In this document: positions 36,021-46,761 of the stretch, piece after piece
How positions within the stretch are numbered: position 1 is the first letter of the stretch
Layout: every line of letters begins with the position of its first letter
Origin: an uncultured Saprospiraceae bacterium
GTDB lineage: Bacteria > Bacteroidota > Bacteroidia > Chitinophagales > Saprospiraceae
Reading direction: 5' to 3'
Assembly (NCBI GenBank): GCA_937951615.1
Contig: CALFBH010000061.1
Coordinates: 1 to 47,511, forward strand
DNA length: 47,511 nucleotides
The notes under the pieces: model-generated
The model's database searches: none
What the model saw: only the letters and a program-made list of their open reading frames with translations
Told to the model about the DNA's origin: nothing
Translations under genes and position numbers: made by a program

Positions 36021-36671
36021 ATGGACACAATAAACGAAGAAATACTTAAACTACTACAAAGTCATTTTGCAGTATTAAACGAAAAAGCTCTACAGGAAGA
36101 AATAGCAAAAGTAGGGTACATGATGCACTTTAAAGCAGGAGAAGTCATTATGGATTTTGGTTCTTATGTGAAGTTGGTTCCATTACTCATCAAAGGCAGT
36201 ATCAAAGTGGTGCGGGAAAGCGAAGATAGAGACGGTGAAATATTCTTATACTTCCTAAAAACAGGAGAAACCTGCTCCATGTCTTTTTCCTGCTGTATGA
36301 TGGATAAGCAAAGCGACATAAGAACCACCGCTGAAGATGATACCACGCTAATCGGTGTTCCTGTAAAATATATCGACCAGTGGATGATGAAATACCCCAG
36401 TTGGAAAAACTTTGTGATGCGTTCCTATGATTCAAGAATGCATGAATTGATACACACCATCGACAGCATCGCTTTTCAAAAACTCGATGAGCGTTTGTTG
36501 GGCTATCTCCGACAAAAAGCCGCCGCTACCCAGTCGAAAATCATCCTGACCACACATCAGCATATTGCAGATGACCTGAATGCTTCAAGAGAAGCCATAT
36601 CCCGCTTGCTGAAAAACCTGGAAAAGACAAAAAATATCAAATTGGGTAGAAATAAAATTGAGCTACTGTGA
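36021..36671 (+). CDS. Crp/Fnr-family regulator of the sulfur unit
   Basis: A 216-residue regulator with an N-terminal cyclic-nucleotide-binding-type beta barrel and a C-terminal helix-turn-helix (HQHIADDLNASREAISRLLKNLEK, about 176-199). The barrel carries three clustered cysteines, TGETCSMSFSCCM (Cys85, Cys91, Cys92), not the N-terminal Fe-S set of Fnr. Clustered Cys in such a domain are good candidates for sensing persulfide, redox or metal, which is my inference. It is the first gene of the sulfur unit, 54 bp before SulP, and a palindrome matching an expected Crp-like site overlaps its own stop codon. Confidence 0.88.
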   Translation: MDTINEEILKLLQSHFAVLNEKALQEEIAKVGYMMHFKAGEVIMDFGSYVKLVPLLIKGSIKVVRESEDRDGEIFLYFLKTGETCSMSFSCCMMDKQSDIRTTAEDDTTLIGVPVKYIDQWMMKYPSWKNFVMRSYDSRMHELIHTIDSIAFQKLDERLLGYLRQKAAATQSKIILTTHQHIADDLNASREAISRLLKNLEKTKNIKLGRNKIELL

Positions 36672-36681
36672 TGAGTATCAC
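36668..36681. promoter_or_regulatory. Candidate Crp/Fnr operator before the SulP gene
   Basis: GTGAT-GAGT-ATCAC, perfect 5-bp arms with a 4-bp spacer, overlapping the stop of the Crp/Fnr gene, 44 bp before the SulP start. The same arms and spacing recur at 38542-38555. It resembles the TGTGA-N6-TCACA class of Crp boxes. Confidence 0.55.
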
Positions 36682-36725
36682 CAAAATTGTTTTTTGAATA
36701 TTCGATTTTTGTGAAAAATAAGAAC

Positions 36726-38441
36726 ATGAATTTAAAAAGCTTGATACCTATACTGGAATGGCTACCACATTATACGACCGAACATTTTAAAGGCGACCTC
36801 GCTGCAGGACTTACGGTTGGCGTCATGCTGATTCCGCAGGGAATGGCTTATGCAATGCTGGCGGGACTGCCTCCTGTATATGGGCTTTATGCTTCTATTT
36901 TGCCACTTATCCTGTATGCAATATTTGGAACATCCCGTCAATTGGCAGTTGGGCCAGTAGCGATGGTTTCGCTGCTTATTGCTGCTGGTGTGGGCATGTT
37001 GGCAGAAGGCGGCACCGAGGCTTACATACAATTGGCCATTTTGCTGGCTTTTATGGTTGGCATGATACAATTATTGATGGGAATTTTTAGACTGGGCTTT
37101 CTGGTGAATTTTCTTTCCCATCCTGTGGTGAGTGGTTTTACTGCTGCTGCTGCATTGATTATCGGATTCAGCCAGCTCAAACATTTGCTGGGTGTGGATA
37201 TTCCTCGCTCTGGTCATATCCATGAAATTATTTTATACGCTTACGCTAATATTGCTGACACCAATCTTTATACACTAGCTATCGGATTGGGAGCTATTGC
37301 AATGATATTGGCGATTAAAAAAATGAAACTCCGTATTCCTGGGCCGCTTGCAGTTGTCATTTTTGGTATTCTTTCGGTCTGGTACTTTGATTTATACAAC
37401 GAAGGCGTTAAAATAGTTGGAGCAATTCCCAATGGGCTTCCCGCTTTATCTTTGCCAGCTTTTAGTCTAGACAGTATTCAGTCCTTGCTCCCCATCGCAC
37501 TGACCATTTCGTTCATCAGTTTTATGGAAAGCATTGCAGTAGCAAAAGCCATTCAAAGCAAACATAAAGACTATGAGATCGTCCCTAATCAGGAATTGAT
37601 AGGCTTGGGCATAGCCAATATTGGCGGTTCTTTTTTACAAGCTTTTCCAACGACAGGCGGTTTTTCAAGAACGGCTGTCAATGACCAAACCGGAGCAAAA
37701 ACGGGCATGGCTGCTATCATCAGTGCCAGCTTAATTGTGCTGACCCTGTTATTACTGACGCCCTTGTTTTATTATTTGCCCAAAGCCATCTTAGCATCCA
37801 TTATTATGGTCGCTGTTTTTGGCTTGCTTGATTATAAAGAAGCCTTTCAGCTATGGAAATGTTATCGCCCTGATTTCTGGATGATGGCAGCTACATTTAT
37901 CGGCACACTTACGCTGGGTATTGAAGAAGGCGTTTTGATTGGCGTAGTGCTTTCACTGGCTATGGTGATTTATCAAATCAGTCGGCCGCATCTAGCCGAG
38001 TTGGGTAAAATTCCCGGAAAACCATATTACAGAAACATCGCTCGATTTGAACAATTGGAAGTCAGAGAAGAAATATTGATTATTCGCCTGGATGCCCGTT
38101 TGCATTATGCAAATGTGAATTACTTTCGAGAGCAGGTAGAAAAAATGATAGCACAAAGAACTAAACCTTTGAAGCTATTGATTCTGGATGCAGATGCTAT
38201 TAATGGAATAGACAGCACTGGTGTGCATACTTTGGAAGACTTATTTGTGGACTGTCGATCAAGAGATATTGCCTGTGCCATTGCCGGACTTAAAGGGCCG
38301 CTTCGCGATATTCTGCATCGTTACGGTAGTTTTAATAAACTTGGGAAAGATGCTTTCCATTTGAAAATACAACATGCTATAGATGTATATGACAATCAGG
38401 TGATTGGTCGTTACAGGGAATATGTATTACAAACGAATTGA
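36726..38441 (+). CDS. SulP-family inorganic anion transporter with STAS domain
   Basis: A 571-residue membrane transporter of the SulP/SLC26 family. It opens with the GDLAAGLTVGVMLIPQGMAYAMLAGLPPVYGLY block (about 24-57), has about 10-12 hydrophobic segments, and ends with a STAS domain (about 440-560: LLILDADAINGIDSTGVHTLEDL). Family members move sulfate, bicarbonate or chloride; the surrounding sulfur genes point to sulfate or sulfite. The start at 36726 gives a normal N-terminus; a TTG at 36687 is rejected. It follows the Crp/Fnr gene closely and is probably controlled by the palindrome at 36668. Confidence 0.92.
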   Translation: MNLKSLIPILEWLPHYTTEHFKGDLAAGLTVGVMLIPQGMAYAMLAGLPPVYGLYASILPLILYAIFGTSRQLAVGPVAMVSLLIAAGVGMLAEGGTEAYIQLAILLAFMVGMIQLLMGIFRLGFLVNFLSHPVVSGFTAAAALIIGFSQLKHLLGVDIPRSGHIHEIILYAYANIADTNLYTLAIGLGAIAMILAIKKMKLRIPGPLAVVIFGILSVWYFDLYNEGVKIVGAIPNGLPALSLPAFSLDSIQSLLPIALTISFISFMESIAVAKAIQSKHKDYEIVPNQELIGLGIANIGGSFLQAFPTTGGFSRTAVNDQTGAKTGMAAIISASLIVLTLLLLTPLFYYLPKAILASIIMVAVFGLLDYKEAFQLWKCYRPDFWMMAATFIGTLTLGIEEGVLIGVVLSLAMVIYQISRPHLAELGKIPGKPYYRNIARFEQLEVREEILIIRLDARLHYANVNYFREQVEKMIAQRTKPLKLLILDADAINGIDSTGVHTLEDLFVDCRSRDIACAIAGLKGPLRDILHRYGSFNKLGKDAFHLKIQHAIDVYDNQVIGRYREYVLQTN

Positions 38442-38541
38442 ACTTGTTTTCCTTTAAAACATTTGTCCAGATGAAGATTCCTATATATCTTAGGAACTAT
38501 AAAATTTAAGTGTTGAAAAAGGATGAAAAATATTTTCTTAT

Positions 38542-38555
38542 GTGATTAAAATCAC
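38542..38555. promoter_or_regulatory. Candidate Crp/Fnr operator before the MBL/rhodanese gene
   Basis: GTGAT-TAAA-ATCAC (within TGTGATTAAAATCACTGT), 71 bp before the MBL start. Arms and spacer length are identical to the site at 36668-36681. In front of the gene an A/T-rich stretch with TTTG motifs could serve as promoter. Confidence 0.55.
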
Positions 38556-38626
38556 TGTATGAGAATAGGAAAACTTGTTTCTTTGTGTTATAAGTTTTTT
38601 GTTAAACTGATTTAAAAAAATTTTCA

Positions 38627-40045
38627 ATGAAAATAGAACAAATTTATACTGGCTGCCTCGCACAAGGGGCTTATTATATTGAAAGCAATGGAGAAGCTGC
38701 GATTATTGATCCGCTTCGCGAAACTGCTCCCTACATTGCGAAAGCAAAAGAAAATGGCGTAAAAATCAAATATATATTTGAAACACATTTTCATGCAGAC
38801 TTTGTTTCCGGGCATTTGGACTTGGCGAAGAAAACAGGTGCAAGTATCATATATGGACCCGATGCAGAAACGGCTTACGAAAAACACCTTTCAAAGGATG
38901 GAGAAGAATTTAAATTAGGGAATATCACCTTCCGCGTTTTACACACGCCTGGTCATACGCCTGAAAGCACGACCTATTTGCTCTTGGATGAAAATGGAAA
39001 AGAACATGCCATTTTTACAGGAGATACCTTGTTTATTGGGGATGTCGGCAGACCTGATTTGGCACAAAAGAAAGGCAACCTGACCAAAGAAGACCTGGCA
39101 GGTTGGCTGTACGATAGTTTACGGAATAAAATTATGCCTTTGCCAGATGAAGTAATGGTGTATCCGGCACATGGAGCAGGTTCGGCTTGTGGCAAAAATA
39201 TGAGTAGTGAAACCTGGGATACGCTAGGTCATCAGAAAGAAACGAATTATGCACTGCGTGCCAATATGACCAAAGATGAATTTATCAAAGAAGTCACAGA
39301 TGGCTTAGTTCCGCCACCACAATACTTTTTCAAAAATGCCAAACTCAATAAAACAGGTTATGAAAGTATTGATGTAGTAATGGAACGGGGCGCGAGAGCA
39401 CTTTCACCAAGAGAATTTGAAGTAGCTGCCAATGAAACCGACGCGTTGATTCTGGACGTAAGAGACAAGGCAACTTTCGTAAAAGGCTTCATTCCCAATT
39501 CTATTTTCATTGGACTCGATGGAAGCTTTGCGCCCTGGGTAGGCGCACTGGTGCCCGACCTGATGCAGCCGATACTGCTAGTTGCTCCAGAAGGCAGAGA
39601 GGAGGAAACCGTCAAACGCCTCGCACGAGTTGGTTATGATAATGCCATTGGTTACCTAAAAGGTGGTTTTGACGCCTGGACAGCAGCAGGGCAGGAGGTC
39701 GATGAAATTGAGACGATTAATGGCGGACAATTTGAAAAAATATATACTGAAGACCAAGAAATTCATATCCTCGATGTCAGAAAACCAAGCGAATGGAGCG
39801 GAGAACATATTGATGGGGGACAAAATTTTGCACTGGATTACATCAATGAAAAGATGAGTGAAATCAGCAAAGACAAAATGTATTATATGCATTGTCGCAG
39901 TGGTTACCGCTCTACAGTCGCAGCTTCTATTTTGAAATCAAGAGGTTTTGAACAACTGGTGAATGTACAGGATACTTTTGCCAATATTTCGGAGTCATCT
40001 ATTCCTATTACTGATTTTGTATGTCCTTCTACTTTGGAGGGGTGA
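38627..40045 (+). CDS. Metallo-beta-lactamase/rhodanese protein, persulfide dioxygenase type
   Basis: A 472-residue three-domain protein. Residues 1-245 are an MBL-fold metal site: THFHAD (H54, H56, D58), TPGHTPES (H110), TGDTLFIGD (D133) and YPAHGAGS (H182), the pattern of ETHE1-type persulfide dioxygenases and their relatives. Two rhodanese domains follow. The first (about 265-355) lacks the active Cys (its loop reads LLVAPEGREEE) and is probably structural. The second (about 375-460) has an intact loop HCRSGYRS with Cys423. The likely reaction is persulfide oxidation to sulfite, with rhodanese transferring sulfane sulfur; the iron-dependent oxygenase activity is inferred from fold and context. 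Confidence 0.88.
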   Translation: MKIEQIYTGCLAQGAYYIESNGEAAIIDPLRETAPYIAKAKENGVKIKYIFETHFHADFVSGHLDLAKKTGASIIYGPDAETAYEKHLSKDGEEFKLGNITFRVLHTPGHTPESTTYLLLDENGKEHAIFTGDTLFIGDVGRPDLAQKKGNLTKEDLAGWLYDSLRNKIMPLPDEVMVYPAHGAGSACGKNMSSETWDTLGHQKETNYALRANMTKDEFIKEVTDGLVPPPQYFFKNAKLNKTGYESIDVVMERGARALSPREFEVAANETDALILDVRDKATFVKGFIPNSIFIGLDGSFAPWVGALVPDLMQPILLVAPEGREEETVKRLARVGYDNAIGYLKGGFDAWTAAGQEVDEIETINGGQFEKIYTEDQEIHILDVRKPSEWSGEHIDGGQNFALDYINEKMSEISKDKMYYMHCRSGYRSTVAASILKSRGFEQLVNVQDTFANISESSIPITDFVCPSTLEG

Positions 40046-40100
40046 AATGTGTTGAAGTGGAAAATGTGTTGAGGTGTTGATGTGCGCGTGTGTTGATGTG

Positions 40101-40158
40101 GTTTGTTTTGCGGATGTAGCGATAATTCATGAATTATCGCTACATCCGCAAAACAAAC
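40101..40158. repeat. 58-bp perfect palindrome upstream of the Fe-S gene
   Basis: Arms of 28 bp (GTTTGTTTTGCGGATGTAGC continuing to GATAATTC) meet at an AT centre, so all 58 bases are perfectly self-complementary. It sits 55 bp after the MBL stop. In RNA it would form an extremely stable hairpin between mbl and the Fe-S gene. It lacks a U-run on the downstream side, so it is not a standard rho-independent terminator. Confidence 0.95.
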
Positions 40159-40160
40159 AC

Positions 40161-40224
40161 GACAACACGACAACACGACAACACGACAACACGACAACAC
40201 GACAACACGACAACACGACAACAC
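40161..40224. repeat. 8 x 8-bp tandem repeat (GACAACAC) before the Fe-S start codon
   Basis: Eight identical copies of GACAACAC, ending 6 bp before the ATG at 40231. Read in frame it would code for TTTRQHDN-type repeats, so gene finders may extend the Fe-S gene into it. On the other side of the palindrome, 40050-40100 contains degenerate inverse copies (GTGTTGATGTG). Copy-number change could alter spacing to the start codon. Confidence 0.95.
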
Positions 40225-40230
40225 GACCAA

Positions 40231-41853
40231 ATGAAATACGGCTTTATCATAGACAACAGAAAGTGCATCGGCTGCCACGCCTGCACAACTGCCTGCAAAT
40301 CTGAACATCAGGTGCCTGTAGGCGTAAACAGAACCTGGGTCAAGCAGGTAGAAAAAGGCGTCTTTCCTGATACACGTCGCTTGTTTTCAGTGATGCGTTG
40401 CAATCATTGTACGGATGCGCCATGCGTGGAAATCTGTCCGACAGAATCCTTATTTATCCGTAAGGATGGCATTGTGGATTTTGACAAGGATCGTTGTATT
40501 GGTTGCAAATCTTGTATGCAAGCCTGCCCTTATGATGCGCTGTACATCGACCCGGAAACACACACCGCAGCAAAATGCAATTATTGTGTACACCGGACTG
40601 AAATTGGTTTAGAGCCTGCCTGTGTCAATGTTTGTCCCGAACACGCCATCATCTCCGGCGACATGGAAAATCCCAATACAGAAATTGCCCAGTTGCTATC
40701 ACGACAGCAGGTGAAGGTGCGGAAACCTGAAAAAGGAACGAAGCCCAACCTCTTCTATATTGATGCAGATGATCTATCCCTAAATCCAACAAGTACGGAG
40801 AAATCGGATAATTACTTCTGGAACAGTCAGGGACTTGGCGTGGGGCATTTTGCCAAAGAAGCTGAAAAAATGGCTTTCTCCAATGGCGATATTATGGAGG
40901 CACTCATGGAGGTCAATGGACAATCCACCACCGCAGAGCAGGTAAATAAAAATGGTAAAGCTAAATCGGTAGATGTATTATTAGGTAAAGGACACCGCAC
41001 TTACGATACGCCCGACAAAGGTATTTTATGGGGCAAAGAAGTCTCTGCTTATGTCTGGACAAAAGCCATTTCTGCTGGCGTATTTTTGGTGACTTTTATG
41101 GCTTATGTTTTTGATATCGGATTGAATGAAGTCATTATTTGGTCAGGTTTGGGACTTGGGTTATTATTTCTGGCGATAACGGGTTTATTGCTGATAAAAG
41201 ACTTAGACAGACCAGACCGTTTTTTGAGCGTACTCTTACGTCCGCAATGGGATTCCTGGCTAGTGAGAGGTGGCTATGCAATCACGATTTATGGCGGCTT
41301 GCTGACCTTGTTGGCTTTGTCGGTCTGGTTCGGCTGGTCGGGGCTGGGTACTGTGCTGATGTGGCTGACAGCTCTTGTGGCGGTTGTGGTGGCTGTTTAT
41401 ACGGCATTTTTATTTGCGCAAGCTAAAGGGCGTGATTTCTGGCAAAGTCCGACCTTATCCATCCACATGCTGGTGCATAGTTTTATGGCTGGTGCGGCTG
41501 TTTTTGGTATCATCGCTTTATTTACGCAAAGTAATGAAAATTGGCTATTCTTATTGAAAAATATATTGCTCATCGGCATAGGTATCAACCTCGCTACCAT
41601 GCTGATAGAACTCGCCACCACGCATTCCACAGATGATGCAAAACGCACAGTGGATATGATTATAAAAGGCAGGTACAAAAATAAATTCTGGTTGGGCGTT
41701 ATCCTTTTCGGAAATATATTACCAGGAGCTTTATTGTTGTTTGGTGGAGCGAATGCCATGATGCTGGGCATAGCCGGAATCATTGTTTTAATTGGAATTT
41801 ATTTGGTCGAAGATATTTGGGTGGAAGCCCCGCAGCGGATACCCTTGAGTTAA
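40231..41853 (+). CDS. Fused [4Fe-4S] electron-transfer and NrfD-like membrane anchor subunit
   Basis: A 540-residue fusion. Residues 1-150 hold four cysteine clusters (C12/15/18/22, C57/60/65/69, C89/92/95/99, C116/119/131/135), a four-[4Fe-4S] subunit of the DmsB/PsrB/SoeB type. Residues about 270-535 have eight or nine membrane segments of the NrfD/PsrC quinol-handling type, including LLIKDLDRPDRF and RPQWDSWLVRGGYAI. The linker (about 155-270) is variable. In most organisms these are two separate genes. The start at 40231 avoids the tandem repeat; translation from 40129 would add repeat-encoded residues. Expected role: move electrons between the molybdoenzyme and the quinone pool. SoeB/SoeC-like in function by context. 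Confidence 0.88.
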   Translation: MKYGFIIDNRKCIGCHACTTACKSEHQVPVGVNRTWVKQVEKGVFPDTRRLFSVMRCNHCTDAPCVEICPTESLFIRKDGIVDFDKDRCIGCKSCMQACPYDALYIDPETHTAAKCNYCVHRTEIGLEPACVNVCPEHAIISGDMENPNTEIAQLLSRQQVKVRKPEKGTKPNLFYIDADDLSLNPTSTEKSDNYFWNSQGLGVGHFAKEAEKMAFSNGDIMEALMEVNGQSTTAEQVNKNGKAKSVDVLLGKGHRTYDTPDKGILWGKEVSAYVWTKAISAGVFLVTFMAYVFDIGLNEVIIWSGLGLGLLFLAITGLLLIKDLDRPDRFLSVLLRPQWDSWLVRGGYAITIYGGLLTLLALSVWFGWSGLGTVLMWLTALVAVVVAVYTAFLFAQAKGRDFWQSPTLSIHMLVHSFMAGAAVFGIIALFTQSNENWLFLLKNILLIGIGINLATMLIELATTHSTDDAKRTVDMIIKGRYKNKFWLGVILFGNILPGALLLFGGANAMMLGIAGIIVLIGIYLVEDIWVEAPQRIPLS

Positions 41854-41861
41854 ACACCACC

Positions 41862-41917
41862 GTACCGACGACTTCAGCCGTCGTAGGAAAACACTTGACG
41901 GCTAAAGTCGTCAGTAC
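41862..41917. repeat. REP-like palindrome, copy B
   Basis: GTACCGACGACTTCAGCCGTC...GACGGCTAAAGTCGTC, then AGTAC. It begins 9 bp after the stop of the Fe-S/anchor gene and precedes the RAYT gene. A further small hairpin TCGACGGTT-TT-AACCGTCGA follows at 41928-41947. Confidence 0.9.
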
Positions 41918-41969
41918 TGTTATGGTATCGACGGTTTTAACCGTCGAAGAAGAAGAATACTCATCACTT

Positions 41970-42629
41970 ATGAAAGTCAAAACATTCCATCGAAATATTC
42001 TACCCCACATTCGCCCTATTGGTGCAACATTCTTTATTACTACAAGACTTGATGATGCTCTACCGCGACACATTATTCGAGAGCTTAAAGAAGCATTTGA
42101 AAAAGAAAAAACAGATATTATACAAAGTCATCCCAATGATTATGAAGAGCGTTTGTATGATGCAAGCAAGCGTCATTTTGGAAAATACGACCACCAACTG
42201 GACGAAAAGCCTTACGGCGAATGTTACCTGAAGAATCCTGATGTCGCGCATATTATTATGGAAAAACTAAAGGAGATGGATGAACATTATTTTGAGTTGC
42301 AAGCCTATTGCATTATGCCTAATCACTTGCATCTGCTGATAAATACCTCTATTCAATTGTTAGGAACTGATATTGATGAATCGAATCTGGATGACCGATA
42401 TATCCAACTTGACAAAACGATGAAACACTTTAAAGGCGCGACGAGTTATTTGTCTAATCAGGCACTTGGACGGAAGGGGAAATTTTGGCAACGTGATAGT
42501 TATGATCACTATGTTCGAAATGATAAAGAATGGGACAATATCGTTAATTATATTTTGAATAATCCTGTCAAAGCTAAGTTGGCACAAACATCTTTAGATT
42601 GGAAATATTCATATTACAGATATGCCTGA
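41970..42629 (+). CDS. REP-associated tyrosine transposase (RAYT, Y1_Tnp)
   Basis: A 219-residue IS200/IS605-like Y1 transposase of the REP-associated branch. The HUH metal motif is HLHLL (His119, His121) in QAYCIMPNHLHLLI, and the likely catalytic Tyr is Tyr178 in RDSYDHYVRND, followed by the typical IVNYILNNPVKAKL. Such enzymes recognise and move nearby REP palindromes. This one is bracketed by three copies (B before; C and D after). A longer reading from 41817 runs through REP sequence and is rejected; ATG at 41970 starts directly on MKVKTFHRNI. Unlike an IS, REP/RAYT loci are usually stable, single-copy parts of the genome. Confidence 0.92.
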   Translation: MKVKTFHRNILPHIRPIGATFFITTRLDDALPRHIIRELKEAFEKEKTDIIQSHPNDYEERLYDASKRHFGKYDHQLDEKPYGECYLKNPDVAHIIMEKLKEMDEHYFELQAYCIMPNHLHLLINTSIQLLGTDIDESNLDDRYIQLDKTMKHFKGATSYLSNQALGRKGKFWQRDSYDHYVRNDKEWDNIVNYILNNPVKAKLAQTSLDWKYSYYRYA

Positions 42630-42639
42630 CGGCATCCCC

Positions 42640-42693
42640 GTACCGACGACTTCAGCCGTCGTAGGGAAACTTGACGGCTAAAGTCGTCAGTAC
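42640..42693. repeat. REP-like palindrome, copy C
   Basis: GTACCGACGACTTCAGCCGTC...GACGGCTAAAGTCGTC then AGTAC, 10 bp after the RAYT stop and in tandem with copy D. Confidence 0.9.
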
Positions 42694-42700
42694 AGCACCC

Positions 42701-42755
42701 GTAACGACGACTTTAGCTGTCGCGGAAATCACATGACGGCTAAAGTCGTCAGTAC
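42701..42755. repeat. REP-like palindrome, copy D
   Basis: A more diverged copy (GTAACGACGACTTTAGCTGT...GACGGCTAAAGTCGTC, then AGTAC). It ends 10 bp before the ATG of the molybdoenzyme gene, so it forms part of that gene's leader and could affect its translation. Confidence 0.9.
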
Positions 42756-42765
42756 TGTTTAGATT

Positions 42766-45648
42766 ATGAAACACAAACCATCACTAATAGAACGCATCGC
42801 CGAATCCATCGGACTAATCCCCAATTTACACAAAGAAGAAGCAACGCCACTGGAAAGTCTGACCGACAAACCAGGCGATCTGACAAGATTTCCGCCGCCT
42901 GAACAGTGGGACGATTGGGTAGAATATGAAGCAACAGCCTGGCCGAAAAAGGAGAAACGACATTATGCCATTGTCCCGACGACTTGTTTCAATTGCGAAA
43001 GTGCTTGTGGGCTGACGGCTTATGTTGATAAAGAAAAAGGAGAAATCCGAAAATTTGAAGGCAATCCCTATCATCCAGGCAGCAGGGGACGCAACTGTGC
43101 AAAAGGGCCAGCAACCATCAATCAAATTACTGATCCTGACCGTATTTTGTATCCGCTGAAAAGAGTGGGCAAAAGGGGGGAAGGCAAATGGGAGCGTGTT
43201 AGTTGGGATGAGATTTTAGATACCATTGCTGCGCGGATGCGCAAAGCCATTCAGGAAAACCGCCACAACGAAATTGCTTATCATGTAGGACGACCAGGAC
43301 ATGAAGGTTATGCCAATCGAGTCATTCAGTCTTGGGGGGTAGATGGGCATAATAGCCACACGAATATCTGTTCTTCTGGGGCAAGGTTTGGCTATAATAT
43401 CTGGTACGGTCACGACCGACCATCGCCCGACCATGCCAATGCTCGATTTATTCTGCTGATTTCTGCACACCTAGAAAGCGGGCATTATTTTAATCCACAT
43501 GCGCAGCGCATTATAGAAGCCAAAATGAAAGGCGCGAAACTGGCTTGCATGGATCCACGTCTGTCCAATACAGCCTCTATGTCTGACTACTGGATGCCGA
43601 CTTATCCTGGCTCTGAAGCTGCGGTTTTGCTGGCAATGGCTAAGATCATTTTGGAGGAAGGTTTGTATAATCGTGCTTACATGGAAAAGTGGGTTAATTG
43701 GCAAACCTATTTGGAAAAAAGACATGCCGACATACCCGTTACATTTGAGAATTTCATTGAAAAAATAAAAGAAGAATATAAAGACTACACGCCTGAATTT
43801 GCAGAAAAAGAAAGTGGTGTAAAAGCAAAGATCGTCAGAGAAGTAGCGGTACAAATAGGGGAGGCCGGTGAGCGATTTTCGACCCACAACTGGCGCAGCG
43901 CAGCGGCTGGGAATCTGGGTGGCTGGTGCGTGTCGCGTGCTTTGCATTTTCTGAATGTACTGACCGGAAGTGTCGGGACAGTCGGTGGAACTTCGCCAAA
44001 TAGCTGGAATAAATTTAAGCCTAAATTTTTCGATACGCCACCTGCACAGAAATTTTGGAATGACCTTCATTTTCCAAATGAATATCCATTGTCCATGTTT
44101 GAAATGAGTTTCCTGCTGCCCCATTTACTCAAAGAGGGCAGGGGCAAAATGGATGTCTATTTTTCGAGAGTATTCAATCCTGTCTGGACTTATCCTGATG
44201 GTTTTACTTGGATGGAAGCCTTTGTGGATGAAGACTTATTCGGCTTACATGCTGCCATGACACCAACTTGGAACGAGACCGCATTTTTCGCAGATTATGT
44301 CTTGCCAATGGGACATGCTGCCGAGCGGCACGACCTGAACAGCTACGCGACACATTCGGGCATGTGGATTGCATTTCGTCAGCCCGTTTTGCGCGAAGCA
44401 GCGCGACGTGCAGGCAAAGAAGTGAAGTTTACTTACGAATCTAATCCAGGTGAAGTGTGGGAAGAAGACGAGTTTTGGATAGAACTGAGTTGGCGCATCG
44501 ACCCTGATGGCAGTCTGGGTATTCGCAAGCATTTTGAATCTCCTTATCGGAAAGGCGAGAAAGTTAGCATTGATGAATATTATCAACATATTTTTGAAAA
44601 TACCAAAGGATTGCCCGAAGCGGCAAAAAAAGAAGGACTGACCGAACTGGATTATATGCGGAAATATGGCGCTTTTGAAGTGGAAAAACATTCTTACATG
44701 AAGAATGAATTTACCCTTTCGGAAGAACAACTCAAAGACGCAAAAATTGATGAGAAAACGGGTGTCATTTCTAAGGACGATAAAGATTTGGGCGTGATGA
44801 TTGACGGTACGCCTTATGTGGGTTTTCCGACGCCCTCCCGCAAGAATGAATTTTATTCTCAGACGATGGTGGACTGGAAATGGGGAGAATATGCCATTCC
44901 GACTTATATCAAAAGCCATATTCACGAAGAAAAATTGGACAAGGAAAAAGGAGAGTATGTCTTGTTGCCCACTTTCCGACTGCCGACGCTCATTCACTCC
45001 CGTTCGGGCAATGCCAAATGGCTAGCTGAAATCTCAAACCGCAACCCCATCTGGATGCATCCCAAAGATGCCAAACGCTGGGGATTCCAGACGGGCGATA
45101 TTGTAAAACTGAATACCGACATTGGTTATTTTGTAGATAAAGTCTGGGTGACAGAAGGGATGAAACCCGGTGTTGTCGCCTGCTCGCACCACCTCGGTCG
45201 CTGGCGCAGACAACAAGATAAAGGCAATCGCTGGGCAACCAATACCGTAAAAATAGAAAACCCGAAAAAAGGCGAATGGAAAATGAATACCATGCAAGGC
45301 GTCCGTCCATTCAAATCGGAAGACCCAGATAGCTCAAGGGTATTCTGGCTCGATGGCGGCGTACATCAGAACATCACCCACGCTGTACATCCCGACCCGA
45401 TCAGCGGTATGCATTGCTGGCACCAGCGCGTCCGCATAGAACGCCCCGGCCCAGATGATAAGTACGGCGATATTTTTGTGGACACGAATAAGTCGCACGA
45501 AATGTACAAGGAATGGCTCGCCATGACCCGCCCTGCGCCTGGACCCGACGGGCTGCGCCGACCTTTATGGTTTAAGCGTCCGCTGAAGCCAGTGAAAGAG
45601 GCTTATTATTTGGATAATATGGATGAGTTTGGGAAGGTTAGGGATTGA
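42766..45648 (+). CDS. Molybdopterin oxidoreductase catalytic subunit, SoeA-like
   Basis: A 960-residue catalytic subunit of the complex iron-sulfur molybdoenzyme superfamily. N-terminal [4Fe-4S] site: C74, C77, C81 and C111 (TTCFNCESAC and NCAKGPA). The likely molybdenum ligand is Cys202 in SHTNICSSGARFGY. The C-terminal molybdopterin-dinucleotide domain has RNPIWMHPKDAKRWGFQTGD and HHLGRWRR. The N-terminus (MKHKPSLIERIAESIG) has no twin-arginine signal, so the enzyme faces the cytoplasm, unlike PsrA/PhsA polysulfide or thiosulfate reductases. That, the neighbouring persulfide dioxygenase and SulP, and the partner Fe-S/NrfD fusion favour a cytoplasmic sulfite dehydrogenase (SoeABC-like). Substrate not proven. 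Confidence 0.85.
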   Translation: MKHKPSLIERIAESIGLIPNLHKEEATPLESLTDKPGDLTRFPPPEQWDDWVEYEATAWPKKEKRHYAIVPTTCFNCESACGLTAYVDKEKGEIRKFEGNPYHPGSRGRNCAKGPATINQITDPDRILYPLKRVGKRGEGKWERVSWDEILDTIAARMRKAIQENRHNEIAYHVGRPGHEGYANRVIQSWGVDGHNSHTNICSSGARFGYNIWYGHDRPSPDHANARFILLISAHLESGHYFNPHAQRIIEAKMKGAKLACMDPRLSNTASMSDYWMPTYPGSEAAVLLAMAKIILEEGLYNRAYMEKWVNWQTYLEKRHADIPVTFENFIEKIKEEYKDYTPEFAEKESGVKAKIVREVAVQIGEAGERFSTHNWRSAAAGNLGGWCVSRALHFLNVLTGSVGTVGGTSPNSWNKFKPKFFDTPPAQKFWNDLHFPNEYPLSMFEMSFLLPHLLKEGRGKMDVYFSRVFNPVWTYPDGFTWMEAFVDEDLFGLHAAMTPTWNETAFFADYVLPMGHAAERHDLNSYATHSGMWIAFRQPVLREAARRAGKEVKFTYESNPGEVWEEDEFWIELSWRIDPDGSLGIRKHFESPYRKGEKVSIDEYYQHIFENTKGLPEAAKKEGLTELDYMRKYGAFEVEKHSYMKNEFTLSEEQLKDAKIDEKTGVISKDDKDLGVMIDGTPYVGFPTPSRKNEFYSQTMVDWKWGEYAIPTYIKSHIHEEKLDKEKGEYVLLPTFRLPTLIHSRSGNAKWLAEISNRNPIWMHPKDAKRWGFQTGDIVKLNTDIGYFVDKVWVTEGMKPGVVACSHHLGRWRRQQDKGNRWATNTVKIENPKKGEWKMNTMQGVRPFKSEDPDSSRVFWLDGGVHQNITHAVHPDPISGMHCWHQRVRIERPGPDDKYGDIFVDTNKSHEMYKEWLAMTRPAPGPDGLRRPLWFKRPLKPVKEAYYLDNMDEFGKVRD

Positions 45649-45888: not shown

Positions 45889-46761
45889 ATGTACAACCTA
45901 ATAGTAACGGGGGACTCTGAATCATGGGATGGGGAGCCATTTATTTTGGATAAAAAGCGGTATCTAGAATATACCGAAATTGATTTTCAGAATAAGTTTT
46001 CAGATTTATCTGAATCGAATATCCAACGGATAATTAGGATGCCCTGTATTTTTGCATATGAACTGTATTGTGAAAAAGATTCACATTTTGGATTAATTCG
46101 GGAAATACAATTGAGGAAAGATCAAATCAAAATATACTATGAAATATTTCCGATTGATATATTCTTGACTATGAATCTTATGGTAGAAAAGAAATTTGAT
46201 TTGGGTATAGGTAAACTTGAATTACATCGAACTCATTGGGCAATTAAAAATGTAGATTTACCACGAGAACTTTATCGTGTAGGAATTGTCCTTCCCGATT
46301 GGGCTATTCGGTCAAAATTATCTGTTGACATTACAGAACATGAATTTCAAGTGGCGTTTTCGTTTCCTGGAGAAGTTAGAGATGTCGTTAAACTAATAAC
46401 AGAAGAACTTGAACAGTCAATAGGGCCAAATTCATATTTTTATGACAATAATTATAGAGCCCAATTAGCAAGGCCGTCCCTCGATTTACTTCTACAAAAC
46501 ATCTATAGAAATAGATCAAAGTTAATTGTAGTTTTCTTGTGTTCGAAATATCAAGAGAAAGAATGGTGTGGAATTGAATTCAAGGCAATAAGAGAAATTA
46601 TTCAAGAGAAACAGCATGACAGAATTATGTATGTAAGAATGGATGATGGAAAAGTTGAAGGAGTTTTTAAGGTTGACGGATATATTGACGGTCAAACTCA
46701 TACGCCAAGGGAAATAGCAGAGTTTATTAAAGAGAGAATTGACCTTTTGATGTTGAATTAG
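45889..46761 (+). CDS. TIR-domain protein, probable stand-alone defence NADase
   Basis: A 290-residue two-part protein. Residues about 152-285 form a TIR domain: FQVAFSFPGEVRDVVKLI (first strand-helix), the YDNNYRAQLARPSLDLLLQNIYRN block and SKLIVVFLCSKYQEKEWCGIEFKAI, in which Glu230 takes the position of the catalytic glutamate of NAD-cleaving TIRs. The N-terminal 145 residues are a domain I do not recognise, possibly a sensor of infection. No thoeris, CBASS or pyrin-like partner lies near, so it is either a single-gene defence system or an effector whose partner is elsewhere. Codon and A/T composition are like other accessory genes here. It is followed at 7-11 bp by an attC-like hairpin. 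Confidence 0.8.
   Translation: MYNLIVTGDSESWDGEPFILDKKRYLEYTEIDFQNKFSDLSESNIQRIIRMPCIFAYELYCEKDSHFGLIREIQLRKDQIKIYYEIFPIDIFLTMNLMVEKKFDLGIGKLELHRTHWAIKNVDLPRELYRVGIVLPDWAIRSKLSVDITEHEFQVAFSFPGEVRDVVKLITEELEQSIGPNSYFYDNNYRAQLARPSLDLLLQNIYRNRSKLIVVFLCSKYQEKEWCGIEFKAIREIIQEKQHDRIMYVRMDDGKVEGVFKVDGYIDGQTHTPREIAEFIKERIDLLMLN

Follow-up and report, generated by a model that had tools for sequence, protein, structure and literature searches.

Persulfide dioxygenases are ascribed to heterotrophic Bacteroidota (PMC12345210, PMC7887784), and the excerpts of these papers considered here name no sulfite sink. This raises the question of whether a string of genes at positions 36021–45648 of contig CALFBH010000061.1, from an uncultured Saprospiraceae bacterium, encodes a route that carries reactive sulfur through sulfite to sulfate. 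The contig stretch of 47,511 nucleotides is referred to below as the window. According to the original prediction, five same-strand genes form such a module, encoding a Crp/Fnr-type regulator, a SulP transporter, a metallo-β-lactamase (MBL)–rhodanese protein, an Fe-S/NrfD fusion and a molybdoenzyme. All five were recovered from the open reading frame (ORF) list of the window and from Pfam and NCBIfam scans, and the number of same-strand ORFs rises to six because a transposase associated with repetitive extragenic palindromes (REPs), located between the fusion and molybdoenzyme genes, had been overlooked. The cluster is probably a worthwhile variation on a known pathway type, in which reactive sulfur would be converted to sulfite and on to sulfate within the cell. 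We consider it reasonably likely that it encodes a regulated, cytoplasmic and detoxifying route from persulfide to sulfate, and its second enzyme, the molybdoenzyme complex, looks like a widespread type that differs from the classical sulfite oxidiser.

In the proposed route, the Crp/Fnr protein would sense persulfide or polysulfide through three invariant cysteines and act at two palindromic operators predicted 5' of the SulP and MBL-rhodanese genes. The CstB-like MBL-rhodanese protein would use O2 to convert low-molecular-weight persulfide to sulfite, or to thiosulfate through its rhodanese domain, as expected from its family. The complex of the molybdenum (Mo) subunit and the Fe-S/NrfD fusion, facing the cytoplasm, would then oxidise sulfite to sulfate, a role suggested by its topology and by its context in Chlorobi, and would pass two electrons to quinone. 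SulP may move sulfate or a related anion, in either direction.

Which side of the membrane does the Mo complex face? The Cys in the motif HTNICSSG, which we take to be the Mo ligand, was found in 94 of 105 Mo-subunit loci, the other 11 not matching the search motif. These loci hold 99 distinct proteins (six are repeats), and none carries a strict twin-arginine translocation (Tat) motif, confirming the predicted absence of a Tat signal; a loose RR-x-hydrophobic match occurs in 10 of them, in seven cases as RRY[FML]L. The strict motif is likewise missing from all 93 distinct fusions, of which 29 reach the edge of the available DNA and have N-termini that are partly read, and the three loose matches among the 93 are RRCIG, with which the first cluster motif begins. 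Pfam bore out the domain composition of the fusion (four [4Fe-4S] clusters and NrfD) as well as those of SulP with its STAS domain and of the MBL protein with its double rhodanese, and the fusion has 16 cysteines, in four groups, within its first 200 residues. Because an N-terminal, signal-less Fe-S domain is fused to NrfD, the arrangement suggests that the catalytic part of the Mo complex faces the cytoplasm, as is proposed for SoeABC (PMC8076601, in the excerpt considered). At the level of sequence, the predicted sulfur-oxidising role on the cytoplasmic side, with an NrfD-type membrane partner, is supported.

The complex is not confined to the order. The relatives were surveyed as a set of 60 genomes (the window genome and 59 others), used alike for the Mo, MBL-rhodanese, sulfide:quinone oxidoreductase (SQR) and Crp surveys; orthologues of the Mo subunit (71–92% identity) occur in 20 of the 59, and any match at E≤0.001 in 38 of the 60. 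A draw of 394 genomes from the phylum contains 64 with a match at E≤1e-50, counting the window genome and two matches of 30–31% identity, and 44 of these 64 belong to one family, f37. The FMO antenna protein is present in 5/5 genomes of f37, 2/2 of f35 and 0/2 of f40 (7 of 16 tested in all), so that the f37 and f35 genomes, positive in 7 of 7 cases, are taken to be green sulfur bacteria. In all 28 loci from f35, f37 and f40 (L053–L080), the fusion and Mo genes are adjacent. Plasmid records contain Mo homologues in Thermomicrobium (62% identity), haloarchaea (53–57%), Rhodococcus jostii (57%) and, more distantly, Sulfurovum (39%); the homologue of Sulfurovum mangrovi (L084:7001–10148) is split over two frames and has no annotated gene. 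In a scan of named records, with a query led by an Azoarcus protein to reach Proteobacteria, we considered the best 80 of 571 loci. Among them, 55 (L111–L165, a few of which overlap our G-numbered genomes) have a Mo subunit of the window type (at least 56% identity), and 48 of these 55 also contain the fusion gene. Their titles comprise Bacteroidota, Chlorobi, Calditrichia, Acidobacteriota, Planctomycetota, Gemmatimonadota, Chloroflexota, Actinomycetota, Nitrospinota and two Deltaproteobacteria. The fusion and the molybdoenzyme form a two-gene unit that spans about ten phyla as well as haloarchaea.

The assignment to sulfite draws on the surroundings of this pair in green sulfur bacteria. In all four Chlorobi-titled loci of the named set (L137, L141, L157 and L159; L203 is the L141 genome again and was counted once) the pair adjoins genes for TauE and a DsrE homologue (30–34% identity), joined in three of the four by TusA. 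Chlorobium sp. N1 has rhodanese, DsrC and DsrA as well, the latter two about 5 kb from the pair; DsrC and DsrA were not found in the other three loci within their 14.6 kb. The rDsr system is described as producing sulfite (PMC6397845, in the part cited). Outside this group, DsrE and TusA flank the pair in Thermomicrobium, and DsrE, TusA and MBL hydrolases, MBL-rhodanese included, surround it on plasmid pRHL3 of Rhodococcus jostii. Within the best 80 of the 571 loci, DsrE, TusA and MBL-rhodanese flank the pair in one Micrococcales genome (L124, L130), and MBL-rhodanese lies beside it in two Ktedonobacter-group loci and one Anaerolineae locus. The green sulfur complex shares with that of the window the order of the two genes, fusion then Mo subunit, and its Mo subunit is 66–69% identical; the two differ in their neighbours, which are TauE, DsrE, usually TusA and, in a single genome, dsrC/dsrA there, and MBL-rhodanese, SulP and a Crp/Fnr regulator in the window. 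From gene number and distribution, the green sulfur complex is probably PSRLC3, which, in the portions of the literature considered, has two genes (PMC5473276) and is an alternative sulfite-oxidising system of these bacteria (PMC6338057). SoeABC genes, for their part, are said in one excerpt to occur in all purple and green sulfur bacteria (PMC8232776). The sole other match to the Mo subunit in Chlorobium sp. N1 bears a Tat motif, so the window type is the only Tat-less candidate seen there.

Is the Mo subunit, then, an SoeA, as was expected first? A quick tree of 55 rows joins the window clade (24 rows, SH-aLRT 100) with a clade led by the Azoarcus protein as its sister group; eight gammaproteobacterial SoeA rows fall elsewhere, as do the PhsA-like, ArrA-like and DmsA rows. 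A second tree, from which six rows were removed (L212, L029, L193, L174, L198 and the N-terminal part of the Sulfurovum protein, which had entered the first tree as two pieces), gave the same result, and placing the window clade together with SoeA was rejected with p-AU 0.028, a modest value given a quick tree, long branches and a group named after the first tree. On the basis of separate clades in both trees and this test, SoeA orthology was rejected. The PhsA-like and ArrA-like rows and one DmsA-like row take their names from the NCBIfam model with the best score, below the cut-off, and PhsA_L214 from its nearness to L213; the E. coli DmsA and YnfE rows are annotated, and TtrA and a biochemically known PsrA are not among the rows. 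The phylogeny had been proposed as the means of telling SoeA from the reductases; the Mo subunit groups with none of the PhsA-like, ArrA-like or DmsA rows, and not with SoeA either.

The SoeA rows are our own identification, a type of about 970–1020 amino acids present in 12 of 14 genomes chosen from the 124 that contain dsrA at E≤1e-60 in a draw of 370 gammaproteobacterial genomes. As characterised SoeA (Allochromatium, Aquifex) was not among the best 80 of 571 loci, these rows were identified by context and not by name; soeABC is described as conserved in dsr-positive sulfur oxidisers (PMC6397845, same excerpt). The SoeA-type gene is followed by separate genes for an Fe-S protein and a DmsC-family, not NrfD-family, anchor (L206, L207), and adjoins aprBA (L207) or an ATP sulfurylase gene (L205). 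In a search of 370 gammaproteobacterial genomes, six gave a match at E≤1e-70, one of them G450, the centre. Five of these six loci (L166–L170) match the Azoarcus protein at no less than 40% identity, and all six (L166–L171) carry a Tat-like motif. The Azoarcus-type clade itself (30 loci, 29 distinct proteins) has a strict Tat motif in 21 of 29 and a loose one in 28 of 29, a TorD-type chaperone gene in both loci tested (L085, L168), and NCBIfam scores below the PhsA cut-off; the titles of its rows (L085–L109, L166–L170) name Beta-, Gamma- and Deltaproteobacteria, Bradyrhizobium and Nitrospirae. With proteobacterial SoeABC, the window complex shares a cytoplasmic-type Mo subunit of about 960 amino acids, a four-cluster Fe-S partner and a quinone-linked anchor. 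It differs in that SoeB and SoeC are separate genes after SoeA, whereas the window has an Fe-S/NrfD fusion, and in that its Mo subunit is 28–31% identical to SoeA, mostly over the N-terminal third. Since SoeC (L206, L207) is of the DmsC family, the two cytoplasmic-type complexes differ in both anchor and Mo subunit. Judged by sequence, the window complex is SoeA-like in layout and belongs to a separate clade, and is not SoeA.

A complex of this ancestry might act on thiosulfate, polysulfide or persulfide, possibly reductively, rather than on sulfite. Such a substrate would be in line with the best NCBIfam scores of the Mo subunit, which are for PhsA and DmsA/YnfE and far below the cut-offs, with a sister clade that has Tat motifs and TorD-type chaperones (2/2) like respiratory reductases, with the lack of orthology to SoeA and the NrfD-type instead of DmsC-type anchor, and with thiosulfate that could come from the CstB-like neighbour. 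We nevertheless regard it as unlikely, given the cytoplasmic location of the Mo subunit, the association with TauE and DsrE/TusA and, in one genome, with DsrC/DsrA, and the distance in the tree from the PhsA-like, ArrA-like and DmsA rows. The reading we lean towards is that the Mo complex works in the manner of SoeABC while belonging to a separate clade, that of the green sulfur two-gene complex.

What the first enzyme of the route delivers depends on its relation to CstB. The window MBL-rhodanese protein aligns over nearly its full length with PDB entries 3r2u, which we take to be CstB, and 3tp9 (E 7e-65 and 2e-73, respectively). Its order of domains, an MBL domain, a first rhodanese domain that has no cysteine and a second with Cys423, is a CstB-like layout. 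The regulator of CstB is the CsoR-type CstR, in contrast to the predicted Crp/Fnr control of the window gene. CstB is reported to convert persulfide to thiosulfate (PMC9774590, in the passage considered), so thiosulfate is a possible product and sulfite is not assured, leaving the predicted step from persulfide to sulfite uncertain. In the excerpts cited, pdo–rhodanese genes of a lake microbiome are widespread in Bacteroidetes and soeAB occurs in Betaproteobacteria only (PMC7887784), and type III persulfide dioxygenases reside mainly in Gemmatimonadota and Bacteroidota in sediments from which SoeABC was not detected (PMC12345210).

The regulator has a Crp-type helix-turn-helix and effector fold, as indicated by Pfam (HTH_Crp_2 above its cut-off, cNMP_binding below cut-off only) and by a structure model whose nearest folds are 3dv8, NtcA and CRP; its recognition helix SREAISR presumably resembles that of FNR. 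The predicted Cys85, Cys91 and Cys92 are present and are its only cysteines; in the model they would sit around a short helix (87–93) of the effector domain, a region of moderate confidence (block means 73 and 69). At E≤1e-12, 43 of the 60 genomes contain homologues, with 55 matches in all. In the 30 of these 55 that were aligned, the three cysteines are invariant (30/30), down to 38% identity; a tandem paralogue in L043, outside the 30, does not have the CC. The protein thus shares fold and helix-turn-helix with the Crp/Fnr family (CRP, NtcA), with GTGAT-N4-ATCAC as the predicted operator in the window, and differs from it by the C-x5-CC in the effector domain. Within 10 kb of the 55 matches, the window's own included, MBL-rhodanese is found in 22 cases, SQR in 8, the Mo gene in 8 and any of these in 26. 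A literature search joining the Crp/Fnr family, sulfane sulfur and persulfide dioxygenase found no such sensor.

The exact palindrome TGTGATNNNNATCAC occurs at three sites in the 6.96-Mb genome, two of which lie in the cluster, upstream of the SulP and MBL genes. The three loci whose Crp protein is at least 70% identical (the window, L034 and L038) all have GTGAT-N4-ATCAC upstream of the MBL gene, as does L158; upstream of SulP it is present in the window and L038. In G010, which is without a window-type Mo gene, the palindrome immediately follows the Crp gene, at the end that faces the MBL gene. When two mismatches are tolerated, the window shows no enrichment of the pattern (11 versus a shuffled mean of 15.8). 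The third genomic site (L253) is located between two ORFs, the nearer downstream one on the + strand being long; named by eye, this ORF starts TIR-like and continues formylglycine-enzyme-like. The claim that the cluster has its own regulator gains support from the conserved cysteines and from the two operators predicted within it, and the Crp/Fnr protein looks like a convincing local regulator of the cluster. A sensor of this kind might instead respond to oxygen, NO, a metal or thiol oxidation, through a disulfide or an Fe-S cluster, with indirect control by sulfur: its fold is Crp/NtcA-like, and three cysteines this close together could hold a metal or pair as a disulfide. Against this, homologues adjoin MBL-rhodanese or SQR genes even without a Mo gene (G010, G013, G043, G051), and we hold another signal to be somewhat unlikely and sulfane sulfur to be the better candidate.

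How far do the genes belong together? Neighbourhoods of 8.5 kb around the Mo gene were compared in 20 loci, the window and 19 relatives (G031, with a contig of 3.7 kb, was left out). The fusion lies within this distance in 18 loci, the two without it (L037, L051) being near contig ends, SulP in 14, MBL-rhodanese in 12, Crp in 7, YeeE and ArsR in 4 each, SQR in 3 and a transposase in 2. All five originally named genes are together in 5 of the 20 loci, and the gene order is identical in the window and L038 only, i.e. in 1 of 19 other loci; a loose neighbourhood is what remains of the predicted conserved order. The genes could be mere neighbours under separate control, with the fusion–Mo pair independent of the Crp/SulP/MBL part. 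Their varying order and rare completeness would fit, as would the tandem repeat and the transposase with its REPs, which break the string, and the missing operator 5' of the fusion or Mo gene. The recurrence of SulP and MBL-rhodanese in 14 and 12 of the loci tells against it, and in three loci SulP is represented by a distant relative (34–38% identity), which argues for a functional tie to the Mo unit. Mere adjacency appears quite improbable to us, and a connected, regulated route is preferred.

Several observations weigh against this route. No match to mitochondrial-type SQR at E≤1e-40 was found in the window genome or in five congeners (two of them 69% complete), so that sulfide entry is missing or different; SQR was rejected here as a member of the module, and calling it a complete set was an overstatement. 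SQR is present in 22 of the 60 genomes (G038 and G049 rest on matches of 26–28%); in the relatives it matches mitochondrial SQR and in some stands beside the Mo unit. It is found in 14 of 21 Mo-positive versus 8 of 39 Mo-negative genomes (14/7/8/31, Fisher p 0.0007, relatedness not corrected). The persulfide that the window organism handles probably arises inside the cell, or else the organism has a different enzyme for oxidising sulfide. MBL-rhodanese, present in 57 of the 60 genomes at E≤1e-60, is a near-universal, general gene of the order, versus 21 of 60 genomes for the Mo gene, so the two are not obligate partners. The identification of the complex as SoeABC falls as well: in the trees the Mo subunit is nearer to an uncharacterised Tat-bearing clade than to the gammaproteobacterial SoeA rows, with which it does not group, and the anchor families differ (NrfD in the window fusion versus DmsC in SoeC). 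As to control, TGTGATNNNNATCAC read backwards likewise has three matches genome-wide, so that the location of the sites, and not their number, is the evidence for operators. The palindrome is missing upstream of the MBL gene in most other loci, and in the window no operator was found in the 300 bp that precede the fusion, Mo and Crp genes; without one 5' of the fusion and Mo genes, the Mo complex is only a candidate for Crp control.

The layout of the cluster is given in Table 1. The likely start of the fusion gene is ATG 40231 and not 40129, because homologues begin with MKYGF or MNYGF (L164, L203) and the stretch upstream is the perfect repeat (AACACGAC)x9. Phase variation through this repeat as a reading-frame switch was rejected, as the repeat precedes the likely start codon. 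A second octamer array of the window, CCCAATAC in 7.8 copies, lies at 201–262, and such arrays are possibly a habit of the genome. The transposase scores 77.8 in NCBIfam, just below the cut-off of 80, and carries inverted REP-like repeats on either side. In the congener G005 (L035) a transposase 81–82% identical is found at the same place, and in G001 (L034) and G003 (L036) the fusion and Mo genes have none between them. Directly 3' of the cluster, at 45889–46761, is an ORF with a TIR domain (Pfam TIR_2).

Table 1. Genes, predicted operators and repeats in the cluster of the window
Feature	Position	Strand	Remarks
Crp/Fnr-type regulator	36021..36671	+	C-x5-CC (Cys85, 91, 92) in effector domain; recognition helix SREAISR
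Palindrome TGTGATGAGTATCAC, predicted operator	36667..36681	.	about 45 bp upstream of SulP ATG 36726; overlaps Crp/Fnr stop codon
SulP-family anion transporter with STAS domain	36687..38441	+	likely start ATG 36726
Palindrome TGTGATTAAAATCAC, predicted operator	38541..38555	.	about 70 bp upstream of MBL-rhodanese gene
Putative CstB-like persulfide dioxygenase	38627..40045	+	MBL, Cys-less rhodanese, rhodanese with Cys423
Perfect octamer tandem repeat (AACACGAC)x9	40156..40227	+	directly 5' of fusion gene
Four-[4Fe-4S] ferredoxin domain fused to NrfD-type membrane domain	40231..41853	+	Pfam; cysteine pattern
REP-associated tyrosine transposase (RAYT)	~41970..42629	+	mobile-type gene inside cluster, outside pathway
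REP-like palindromic repeats	42637..42755	.	62-bp unit, 1.9 copies; similar inverted sequence 5' of RAYT
Mo-bisPGD-type catalytic subunit	42766..45648	+	Tat motif absent; N-terminal CxxCxxxCG; HTNICSSG with putative Mo-ligand Cys

A literature search joining Saprospir-, sulfite and persulfide dioxygenase found nothing. A broader proposal, which we advance tentatively and hold to be possible but rather doubtful, is that a C-x5-CC family of sulfane-sulfur-sensing Crp/Fnr proteins controls persulfide oxidation across the Saprospirales, and that the Mo enzyme is a second, separately evolved family of cytoplasmic sulfite:quinone oxidoreductases, hidden under SoeA or polysulfide-reductase labels in about ten bacterial phyla and in haloarchaea. 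For the persulfide pathway of Bacteroidota, the cluster offers a potentially energy-conserving end that is open to testing, together with a candidate thiol-based regulator and its predicted operators. Its Mo enzyme is a phylogenetically separate family, and soeA, psrA and similar labels given by homology may overlook this clade or misname it.

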